From IMG/VR virus record IMGVR_UViG_3300006802_000589, positions 1 to 23,583 of that record: DNA of 23,583 nucleotides; one strand, written 5' to 3'. Positions within the stretch are counted from its first letter, which is position 1; each line of letters starts with the position of its first letter. A program made the translations under genes and the position numbers. Below, piece after piece: positions 21,411 to 23,583 of the stretch. The notes beneath the pieces were generated by a model. The model was given only the letters and a program-made list of their open reading frames with translations. It was not told the origin of the DNA and ran no database searches. This stretch comes from a virus.

Positions 21411-21445
21411 AAAAAATTAGGGGGCTTAACGGCCCCCTTTTTTAT
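21411..21445. terminator. Bidirectional rho-independent terminator
   Basis: A six-base GC stem (GGGGGC at 21420-21425, GCCCCC at 21432-21437) with a six-base loop is followed by six T. Six A precede it (21411-21416), so the minus strand also reads as hairpin plus T run. It lies exactly between the convergent ends of the 1141-aa gene and the MazG-like gene. Confidence 0.9.
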
Positions 21446-21447
21446 TG

Positions 21448-21777
21448 CTATCGTTTGTCTCCACTGCCACCTAGTGTACCAGCTTGTAATCGTGCTGACA
21501 GTTTCTGTTCATTCTGTCCTGCGATCATACCCAATGTCAGGTTAAGATCAGTAGCTAGTGCAGCACAGTACCATAGTACGTCACCAATCTCACTGGCAAT
21601 CTGTTCTCGCCAATCCTTTGGTGCATTCTCAAAGCCATCACGAATAAGCTTCTTCACCTTGTTGGCTACCTCACCTGCCTCACCTGCTAGTCCAAGTGCC
21701 GGATACAAAATCTTATGCTCCGGTGGGTAGATTGCAGTACGTGAAGCTGATCGTTGGTATGCGTTAAAGTCAGACAT
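21448..21777 (-). CDS. mazG: MazG-like nucleotide pyrophosphohydrolase
   Basis: The product is 109 aa from the ATG at 21777; the in-frame ATG at 21828 would give 126 aa. I prefer 21777 because GGAGAAG lies seven bases upstream and MSDFNAYQRSASRTAIYP is the usual N-terminus of phage MazG proteins, though the longer start also has an AAGGAAG. Metal-binding motifs are visible: GLAGEAGEVANKVKK (E-x-x-E) and EIGDVLWY (E-x-x-D), and the end has G-x-x-x-GSGDKR. The family cleaves nucleoside triphosphates or related nucleotides to monophosphate and pyrophosphate; phage members are thought to reshape nucleotide pools or alarmones, but which substrate applies here cannot be read. It overlaps the RMF-like gene by eight bases (ATGTCTGA). 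Confidence 0.9.
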   Translation of the reverse strand: MSDFNAYQRSASRTAIYPPEHKILYPALGLAGEAGEVANKVKKLIRDGFENAPKDWREQIASEIGDVLWYCAALATDLNLTLGMIAGQNEQKLSARLQAGTLGGSGDKR

Positions 21778-22030
21778 ACTGTACTTCTCCTTCAGAAATT
21801 GCTCTGCCTCTTTTTGTAGTTTGTTCATTGCGCTTTACTTCCTTCAAGTTCTCAAAGTAAGCAGCGTTGAATCCTCTTTCCCACTCTCTGTATAACATCG
21901 TATCATCGCTGAAGGGATTAACTGTCCTGCCTTTTTTGAAATCTGTAACACCTCTAGTATACTGCACTGATAGAGGTGCATCGTGCTTACCAAGTCCACG
22001 TTCTTTTCTTGAGTTGTTAAGTTTGTTCAT
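21770..22030 (-). CDS. Small protein resembling ribosome modulation factor
   Basis: The product is 86 aa from the ATG at 22030, which forms ATGA with the PhoH stop and is preceded by GAGGAG; a more upstream start at 22066 is less likely. The centre reads YTRGVTDFKKGRTVNPF, then a spacer and EWERGFNAAYFENL. This follows the layout of ribosome modulation factor (RMF): R-G-x-x-x-G/F-x-x-G, N-P-Y/F, then W-x-x-G-W/F-x-x-A. RMF drives dimerisation of 70S ribosomes into inactive 100S particles in stationary phase. The flanks here are longer than in E. coli RMF, and the end is basic and unlike RMF. Activity on ribosomes is inferred from the motif only. It lies between phoH and mazG-like genes. Confidence 0.6.
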   Translation of the reverse strand: MNKLNNSRKERGLGKHDAPLSVQYTRGVTDFKKGRTVNPFSDDTMLYREWERGFNAAYFENLKEVKRNEQTTKRGRAISEGEVQYV

Positions 22031-22728
22031 ACTCGCTTCTCCTCTTGCATAAATGCAGCTATCCATTGTTTACACAGACTTGATCGAACAATGTCTTCCA
22101 TGCCAAACTCAACGATAGGTACTGGAAGCATATACTTTTTCACCATGTGAATAGCTTTTGCTAGGCCGCTAGTCTCGTTTAAGTCTGACTGAAAAATGTC
22201 ACCATTCAGGATCACCTTACAGTTTTCACCAACTCTAGTCAAGAACATTTTAATCTCATGCGGAGTTACGTTCTGTGCTTCATCAAGAATTACGAAGGCA
22301 TCTTGAAATGATCTGCCTCTCATAGTTTCGAATGGCGCAATCTCAATGTTACCATTCTTTATGCCAGTATCTACTGCACCCTTACCTAAGTTCCAGTGCA
22401 GAACCTCTAGCACTGGCATAACCCACGGCATCATCTTCTCTTCAAGTGTACCGGGAAAGTATCCAATGCTTTTACCTGCAGCGATATTAGGTCTAGTCAC
22501 GATAATCTTATCAATAGACTTTGTGATGTACTGATTAGCTGCATATGTAGCTGCAATGTAAGTCTTACCTGTACCTGCTGGGCCCAACACGATAACCTGA
22601 TTATACTCACTGATAGCCTTGATATATTCAGCCTGTTTATCCGTCTTAGGTAGCAGCTGTGCTGTTTCTTTCTTAGCTGCATTCTTGTACGTAGTCTTGC
22701 GCTTGCTTCTAGTGGATTCTTCCTGCAC
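22027..22728 (-). CDS. phoH: PhoH-like ATPase
   Basis: The product is 233 aa from a GTG at 22728, with GGAG six bases upstream inside the end of the glutaredoxin gene; there is no ATG before residue 99. Walker A is GPAGTGKT (residues 49-56) and Walker B VILDEAQN (residues 146-153). Between them lies IIVTRPNIAAGKSIGYFPG, and NGDIFQSDL follows; all are PhoH hallmarks. The N-terminal 25 residues are basic. PhoH-like proteins are common in marine phages; bacterial relatives are linked to RNA and ribosome metabolism, but the role in phages is unsettled. The stop overlaps the RMF-like gene's start in ATGA, so the two are translationally coupled. Confidence 0.95.
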   Translation of the reverse strand: MQEESTRSKRKTTYKNAAKKETAQLLPKTDKQAEYIKAISEYNQVIVLGPAGTGKTYIAATYAANQYITKSIDKIIVTRPNIAAGKSIGYFPGTLEEKMMPWVMPVLEVLHWNLGKGAVDTGIKNGNIEIAPFETMRGRSFQDAFVILDEAQNVTPHEIKMFLTRVGENCKVILNGDIFQSDLNETSGLAKAIHMVKKYMLPVPIVEFGMEDIVRSSLCKQWIAAFMQEEKRV

Positions 22729-22731
22729 CGC

Positions 22732-22962
22732 TTACTCCAGATTAAGGTGTTTAATTAGGTCTGAGTAACCACCAATGTAGTTACCCCCATCATCAAAGAT
22801 TTGTGGAACGCTTCTGTGGTTTGCCTGTCGAATGAGTGTAAGTAACCACCTACTGCTTGGGCTATCAACGTGATATTCTGTGTATTGAATATTCATGCCC
22901 TTTAGTACAGACTTAGCCGAGTCACAAAAATTGCACTGTGTTCTGCCTACGATGACCCACAT
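22732..22962 (-). CDS. Glutaredoxin
   Basis: This is a compact 76-aa thioredoxin-fold protein. The active site CNFC is at residues 10-13 after a first strand (WVIVGRTQ), the cis-proline motif SVPQIF is near residue 51, and GGYSDL closes the glutathione-binding side. In phages such proteins usually supply electrons to ribonucleotide reductase or keep phage proteins reduced; no reductase gene is in the window. It starts in TAATG with the 51-aa gene and ends three bases before the PhoH GTG. Length is normal for phage glutaredoxins. Confidence 0.92.
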   Translation of the reverse strand: MWVIVGRTQCNFCDSAKSVLKGMNIQYTEYHVDSPSSRWLLTLIRQANHRSVPQIFDDGGNYIGGYSDLIKHLNLE

Positions 22963-23117
22963 TAGCCTTGCCCTCTATTCTTTTTATAGCTGCGCTTCTT
23001 GCTCTTGTTCATAGAAGATAACTTAACTGAACTGTTGGAATTGCCCTGAGAGGTTTTCTTTCTGTGAGGCTGTGGCTTCCAAGTCGTATTACCAATTACT
23101 CCTTTAGGCTTTGCCAT
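22962..23117 (-). CDS. Small highly basic protein, no acidic residues
   Basis: A 51-aa frame runs from the ATG at 23117 (GGAG six bases upstream) to a TAA sharing TAATG with glutaredoxin. It reads MAKPKGVIGNTTWKPQPHRK, then a Ser/Asn-rich linker, then MNKSKKRSYKKNRGQG. It has 11 Lys, 3 Arg and no Asp or Glu, so it probably binds nucleic acid or ribosomes. A similar KK-R-S-x-KK-x-RGQG ending is familiar to me from other marine phage proteins of unknown function. Its start overlaps the 62-aa gene by 14 bases. The tight coupling on both sides argues that it is real. Confidence 0.75.
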   Translation of the reverse strand: MAKPKGVIGNTTWKPQPHRKKTSQGNSNSSVKLSSMNKSKKRSYKKNRGQG

Positions 23118-23292
23118 TCATATCTCCGTTTACATCGCTCCGACCAGTGTGCTTTTTATTCCGTCCCAAGGAAATGCGTTCTTTAAGTTCTCTGCTTCTA
23201 TCAACAAGCTTTCTCAGCTTATCGTCTGTGTCTGAGATTGCCCACTGCACTCTCCAGTATTCGTCTTTAAGTTCTTCCATAGTCATCTCCAT
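23104..23292 (-). CDS. Small coiled-coil protein, unknown
   Basis: This 62-aa protein starts at 23292 after AAGGAGAAG, a strong ribosome site. Most of it is one amphipathic helix (MEELKDEYWRVQWAISDTDD, then KLRKLVDRSRELKERI), probably a coiled coil; the end is short and polar. It overlaps the 51-aa gene by 14 bases. It lies just downstream of the tRNA and heads this small-gene cluster. I do not recognise the family, and no function is proposed. Confidence 0.7.
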   Translation of the reverse strand: MEMTMEELKDEYWRVQWAISDTDDKLRKLVDRSRELKERISLGRNKKHTGRSDVNGDMNGKA

Positions 23293-23308: not shown

Positions 23309-23395
23309 TGGTGCCAACTGTCGGACTCGAACCGACACGCCCATAAGAGCAAGAGATTTTAAGTCTCTGGTGTCTACCTATTCCACCAAGTTGGC
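23309..23395 (-). tRNA. tRNA-Leu(UAA)
   Basis: On the minus strand, acceptor GCCAACT (from 23395) pairs with AGTTGGC, followed by A and an encoded CCA (23311-23309). The anticodon stem AGAGA/TCTCT holds the loop CTTAAAA, giving anticodon TAA. A long variable arm (class II), a D-arm segment GGTGGAATAGGTAGAC, and a T-arm with GGTTCGAGTCC are all present, as in bacterial tRNA-Leu. It reads UUA and UUG codons, which are frequent in the AT-rich genes here. It lies between two minus-strand genes. Confidence 0.95.
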
Positions 23396-23402
23396 TAATA
23401 GG

Positions 23403-23583
23403 TTACATATTAATAGTCTCAACTTCAGCATAGGGAATGTGATAGAACAATTCCCCCTTGAGAATGTTACGACCACTAGCTTCTTTCAATCGTTCAGGCT
23501 TAAGTGCGCTGTCCTTGATGCGGAAACACTGCTTAAAGTCTTTACGGAAGATGTAGAAGTTTAGAAACCCAGAGCCATACTTA
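23403..23583 (-). CDS. 3' end of an unidentified gene
   Basis: On the minus strand a frame is open from the right window edge to TAA at 23405-23403, giving 59 C-terminal residues. They include YGSGFLNFYIFRKDFKQCFR, then LKPERLKEASGRN and LFYHIPYAEVETINM. It is mixed basic and aromatic with no recognisable motif. It ends seven bases before the tRNA. The composition is protein-like and the frame matches its neighbours' strand; other frames are interrupted. Function unknown. Confidence 0.6.
   Translation of the reverse strand, partial: KYGSGFLNFYIFRKDFKQCFRIKDSALKPERLKEASGRNILKGELFYHIPYAEVETINM

Follow-up and report, generated by a model that had tools for sequence, protein, structure and literature searches.

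Genes and features at the locus

The window, meaning the whole 23,583-base viral record analysed here, covers part of the genome of a marine podophage of the HMO-2011 type. Its 1141-aa structural protein, which is encoded convergently to the gene block of interest, has matches in CRP-345, HMO-2011 and CRP-1, phages whose hosts are Rhodobacteraceae and SAR116 bacteria (Alphaproteobacteria). On the minus strand, the block runs from an Hjc-like protein through a tRNA-Leu, two small ORFs, glutaredoxin, PhoH, an 86-aa protein here called RMFl, and MazG to a candidate terminator:

23406..23582, minus strand: Hjc-like "hyp28", C-terminal part only, the gene being cut by the contig end; assigned from the predicted fold of its relatives
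23309..23395, minus strand: tRNA-Leu (TAA) separating the Hjc-like gene from the two small ORFs (ARAGORN)
23104..23292, minus strand: 62-aa ORF with no assigned function, same block (ORF list)
22962..23117, minus strand: 51-aa ORF with no assigned function, same block (phrog_17967, E 1.3e-5)
22732..22962, minus strand: glutaredoxin, upstream in the same block (PF00462, E 2.8e-9)
22027..22728, minus strand: PhoH-like P-loop ATPase with a GTG start and an ATGA overlap with RMFl (PF02562, E 2.9e-67)
21770..22030, minus strand: RMFl, 86-aa basic protein of predicted Rmf/CrpP fold; core helical hairpin at residues 20-73
21448..21828, minus strand: MazG-like NTP pyrophosphohydrolase, 126 aa from the likely start ATG 21828 (PF03819, E 2.3e-6)
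21419..21438, no strand assigned: hairpin carrying T tracts on each strand, a putative bidirectional terminator where MazG and the convergent structural gene meet, called by consensus match only

The nucleotide-metabolism block includes a tRNA-Leu (TAA). The ribonucleotide reductase (RNR) that accompanies these genes in relatives is expected past the contig end, beyond hyp28.

The first-pass annotation of this DNA had described PhoH, RMFl and MazG as one coupled unit. Much of its description of the individual genes holds. PhoH starts at a GTG (22728-22027, minus strand), an ATGA at 22030-22027 joins the PhoH stop to the RMFl start, and the RMF-layout motif quoted in that annotation is present in the 86-aa ORF (22030-21770). 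The identities of the two enzymes are confirmed by Pfam matches together with catalytic motifs: PhoH matches PF02562 and carries a Walker A GPAGTGKT at 49 and DEAQ at 149; MazG matches PF03819 with 28.2 bits against a cut-off of 22 and carries EAGE at 50 and EIGD at 80, an EXXE-EXXD motif.

The reported eight-base overlap between RMFl and MazG has to be revised. It depends on an inner ATG at 21777, and ATG 21828 is better supported because the N-terminal stretch that it adds (MNKLQ-EAEQFLKEKY) is kept in MazG relatives even where the inner ATG is missing, as in L036, L041, L133, L074 and L075. Comparison of the sequences suggests that the overlap is probably 59 bases. The MazG of CRP-1 is annotated from the inner start; comparison among relatives favours the upstream one. 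According to the ORF list, genes in both blocks of the window repeatedly overlap by 1-4 bases or more, so that the tight spacing of PhoH, RMFl and MazG is not special.

Relatives in hundreds of viral contigs and purifying selection show that the 86-aa ORF is a genuine gene. The RMFl family query matched 577 viral stretches, and omega was 0.01-0.22, indicating strong purifying selection, in pairs with unsaturated dS; pairs that include the window's own RMFl are saturated, and the range comes from the others. The GenBank records of CRP-3 (L078, 5986-6168) and CRP-235 (L079, 5962-6147) contain RMFl ORFs that are unannotated.

RMFl as a remote relative of RMF

The likeness to RMF proposed in the first-pass annotation depends on the level at which it is assessed. 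Taken alone, the window protein has no significant match to PF04957 (13.1 bits, E 0.1; curated cut-off 27.9 bits). Single-sequence searches of NCBIfam, PHROGs and the PDB likewise gave no convincing match, and the window's own RMFl has no NCBIfam match at all. A significant RMF match is therefore not confirmed for the single protein. The layout itself stands at the level of family and fold, through the profiles and the Foldseek ranking. PF04957 is matched by 15 of 18 RMFl family members (best E 1.3e-5), and the NCBIfam profile Rmf_CrpP_fam (NF041886) is matched weakly by 10 of the 18 (best E 0.0026). When the RMFl family profile was run against 177,635 PDB sequences, E. coli RMF ranked first at a marginal E of 0.016.

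The predicted structure is consistent with this assignment. The AlphaFold model consists of two helices, H20-33 and H45-73, joined by a loop, with core pLDDT above 90. Foldseek against the PDB returned as its top match RMF in the hibernating E. coli ribosome (9iot_y), with a TM score of 0.69 by target length and an E-value of 3.3; so weak an E-value is expected, as the hairpin comprises only 50 residues. In a viral structure library, many small phage proteins have the RMFl shape, and two among those listed are named "Ribosome modulation factor".

RMFl shares with RMF (PF04957) the two-helix hairpin, the spacing of G, G, xP(F/Y), W, G(F/W) and A, and a basic charge (median pI 10.2 for the RMFl family, 10.3 for RMF). 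It differs in its median length (85 versus 58 aa) and in being phage-borne, beside RNR. The MKRQKRD N-terminus, present in 33 of 33 RMFs, occurs in 0 of 25 RMFl members, and the CP motif of RMF is missing, with NP(F/Y) in its place. Profile-profile comparison points in the same direction: with hhalign, RMFl scored 34.7 (P 92%) against a divergent Rmf/CrpP-fold set and 23.8 (P 40%) against RMF orthologues, where the best of 200 column shuffles, made on core columns only, reached 18.5 and 18.0, respectively. By these comparisons RMFl appears nearer to divergent Rmf/CrpP-fold proteins, of the kind covered by NF041886, NF041887 ("Rmf_like_phage") and NF041856, than to RMF orthologues. Phage members of this fold are already annotated, for example the BFVD entry "Ribosome modulation factor" of Caulobacter phage CcrBL9. 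The sampled cellular Rmf/CrpP relatives, in contrast to basic RMFl, are mostly acidic (median pI 4.8), and a profile search of genome contigs with the RMFl family profile found no cellular relative. A literature search found no paper treating CrpP and RMF together, and the titles and abstracts listed for phage-encoded RMF contained no description of RMFl.

If short helical hairpins had instead converged on this resemblance without common ancestry, the shortness of the protein, the non-significant single-sequence PF04957 match and the weak Foldseek E-value would all be accounted for. This reading is nevertheless quite improbable. In independent methods, G, G, NP(F/Y), W, G(F/W) and A fall in the same register as in RMF, the profile score lies above 200 of 200 shuffles, and PF04957 scans of the whole records of seven related phages picked RMFl alone in five of the seven, all below the cut-off. 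Profile and model evidence thus supports the RMFl family as a remote relative within the Rmf/CrpP fold and not as an RMF orthologue.

Gene order in related phages

Searches that used either RMFl or PhoH as query supplied the RMFl loci, which fell into 34 clusters at a threshold of 90% nucleotide identity. The order PhoH-RMFl-MazG occurs in 7 of the 34 (that of the window and six others), a proportion more likely to overstate the trio than to understate it, because the sample is biased towards window-like sequences. RNR-RMFl-MazG without PhoH is found in 16 clusters, RNR-RMFl with no MazG downstream in 9, RMFl-MazG with RNR off-contig in 1, and RMFl without PhoH, RNR or MazG in 1. RNR is thus a neighbour of RMFl in 31/34 clusters, and contig ends cut two of the remaining three. 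The gene immediately upstream of RMFl varies between hyp28, RNR and PhoH.

Searches of whole relatives give the same picture. In 21 relatives lacking PhoH at the locus, PhoH was found elsewhere in none (0/21), and MazG was found in 17; MazG was missing from four contigs searched whole. The four larger contigs of the L001-L031 set that were searched whole (L014, L015, L016 and L018) contain neither MazG nor PhoH. In CRP-212, CRP-3, CRP-235 and ctYwJ313, MazG is placed upstream of RNR, and in many phages PhoH follows RNR and RMFl is absent. On the tree, the distribution of PhoH needs three changes, and a single origin of PhoH is also compatible with it. RMFl follows RNR immediately in the viral contigs L001-L031, often at a distance of one base.

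A survey of phage genomes, proposed in the first-pass annotation as a check on the trio, therefore shows that PhoH-RMFl-MazG is not conserved beyond close relatives, and the proposal of one conserved system does not survive it: PhoH is present in 7/34 clusters and 0/21 PhoH-less relatives, and MazG is absent or moved. The sequence comparisons support a different description, in which the three genes form no dedicated system and are part of a shuffled nucleotide-metabolism cassette. HMO-2011-type phages have a nucleotide-metabolism module of RNR, GRX, MazG, PhoH and ThyX (PMC9038755, PMC6918029). Gene content and order are shared with this module, and the window matches its members; RMFl differs in being a "hypothetical protein" or lacking annotation in HMO-2011-type records. 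The word "ribosome" is missing from the main text of both papers, which mention no ribosome factor.

The protein encoded by hyp28 is conserved, nameless so far, and adjoins RNR in these phages. Full copies are present in L073 (5528-5971) and L091 (5528-5971), with D44, E57, E59 and K61 invariant. The predicted structure of hyp28 relatives, which has good confidence, matches archaeal Holliday-junction resolvases in Foldseek (E 1.8e-5, probability 1.0). Judged by this model, hyp28 looks like an Hjc-type resolvase of the PD-(D/E)XK fold.

Hibernation factors of the presumed hosts

The first-pass annotation had proposed that RMFl could act as a mimic of host RMF. The distribution of RMF was examined in 299 genomes from the phylum of E. 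coli, an RMF orthologue being defined as a near-full-length match above 60 bits, with lists cross-tabulated by hand. By that criterion, 47 of the 299 genomes have RMF. The GcrA-positive genomes (n=81) were taken as Alphaproteobacteria, the class inferred for the host from the nearest isolates and not from the window's own host. None of these 81 has an RMF orthologue, and 79 have the C-terminal domain of long HPF. As the sampled Alphaproteobacteria lack an RMF orthologue and nearly all have long HPF, a mimic of host RMF has no template there. Shorter, weaker Rmf-fold matches occur in 13/81 GcrA-positive genomes. In G154, G146, G274 and other GcrA-positive genomes, there are multiple short Rmf/CrpP-fold genes each.

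The suggested alarmone link of MazG is also weakened. One cyanophage MazG, whose preferred substrates are dGTP and dCTP, leaves (p)ppGpp unhydrolysed (PMC6850273). By analogy, the MazG of the window, likewise a phage MazG-domain enzyme, most likely hydrolyses (d)NTPs.

These results bear on the model in which PhoH, RMFl and MazG work as one dedicated system by which ribosome hibernation in starved hosts is either blocked or imposed. In its favour, the genes lie side by side with overlaps in the window, they are neighbours in six further clusters, and RMFl has an Rmf-type fold. Set against this are the routine overlaps in the window genome, the lack of PhoH in all 21 PhoH-less relatives, the absence of MazG or its position upstream of RNR elsewhere, the host survey (0/81 with RMF, 79/81 with long HPF), and the inactivity of a cyanophage MazG on (p)ppGpp (PMC6850273). 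A dedicated hibernation system is thus very improbable.

A mosaic cassette and the possible roles of RMFl

Both the mosaic nature of the cassette and the fold of RMFl have support in the present evidence. The explanation that best accommodates them is that the trio would form the last part of the nucleotide-metabolism cassette carried by HMO-2011-type marine podophages, with the general order class II ribonucleotide reductase, glutaredoxin (variably), Hjc-like nuclease (variably), PhoH (optional), RMFl and MazG. Small genes would be exchanged in and out of this cassette, and its clustered genes are presumably co-expressed. MazG and RNR would adjust dNTP supply; PhoH would be a passenger in its slot and no obligate partner of the others; and the basic hairpin of RMFl would most likely attach to RNA or to the small subunit of the ribosome during cassette expression, independently of PhoH and MazG. 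The probability of this explanation as a whole is estimated at roughly 0.55. Its molecular component, binding of RNA or the small subunit through the basic hairpin, is a tentative assignment at somewhat less than even odds, and a protein-partner role of RMFl in the RNR/MazG module is doubtful.

A narrower possibility is that RMFl, acting solo, occupies the RMF site (mRNA exit channel/anti-Shine-Dalgarno) and lowers host translation or protects ribosomes. Consistent with this are the Rmf-type hairpin, the RMF-like basic charge, the strong purifying selection, and a conserved basic stretch, SRKERGLGK, immediately N-terminal to the hairpin. The profile of RMFl is, however, nearer to non-RMF proteins of the Rmf/CrpP fold than to RMF, MKRQKRD and CP(Y/F) are lacking, and its neighbour is RNR, not translation genes. 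Occupation of the RMF site is therefore unlikely. That the phage RMF-fold protein binds the ribosomes of alphaproteobacterial hosts, adding an RMF-like control to bacteria that, in the genomes sampled, lack RMF orthologues and would otherwise hibernate by long HPF, is distinctly unlikely.

Alternatively, RMFl could bind proteins and serve as an adaptor or regulator, either for the nucleotide module (RNR, MazG) or for phage DNA. The constancy of RNR as a neighbour and the usual presence of MazG would fit such a role. The argument is one of gene proximity alone, though; the basic charge points to nucleic acid, and some RMFl lineages exist without MazG on the contig. An adaptor is accordingly an unlikely reading as well, and the cassette explanation with an RNA- or ribosome-binding RMFl is preferred.

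Implications

A fold can now be given to a small protein that is conserved across an abundant group of marine phages and has so far been hypothetical or uncalled in them. Its steady neighbours are RNR and usually MazG, PhoH being optional, and PhoH-RMFl-MazG is not to be regarded as a system. If RMFl does bind ribosomes, these phages would supply an RMF-type factor to hosts that are without one.
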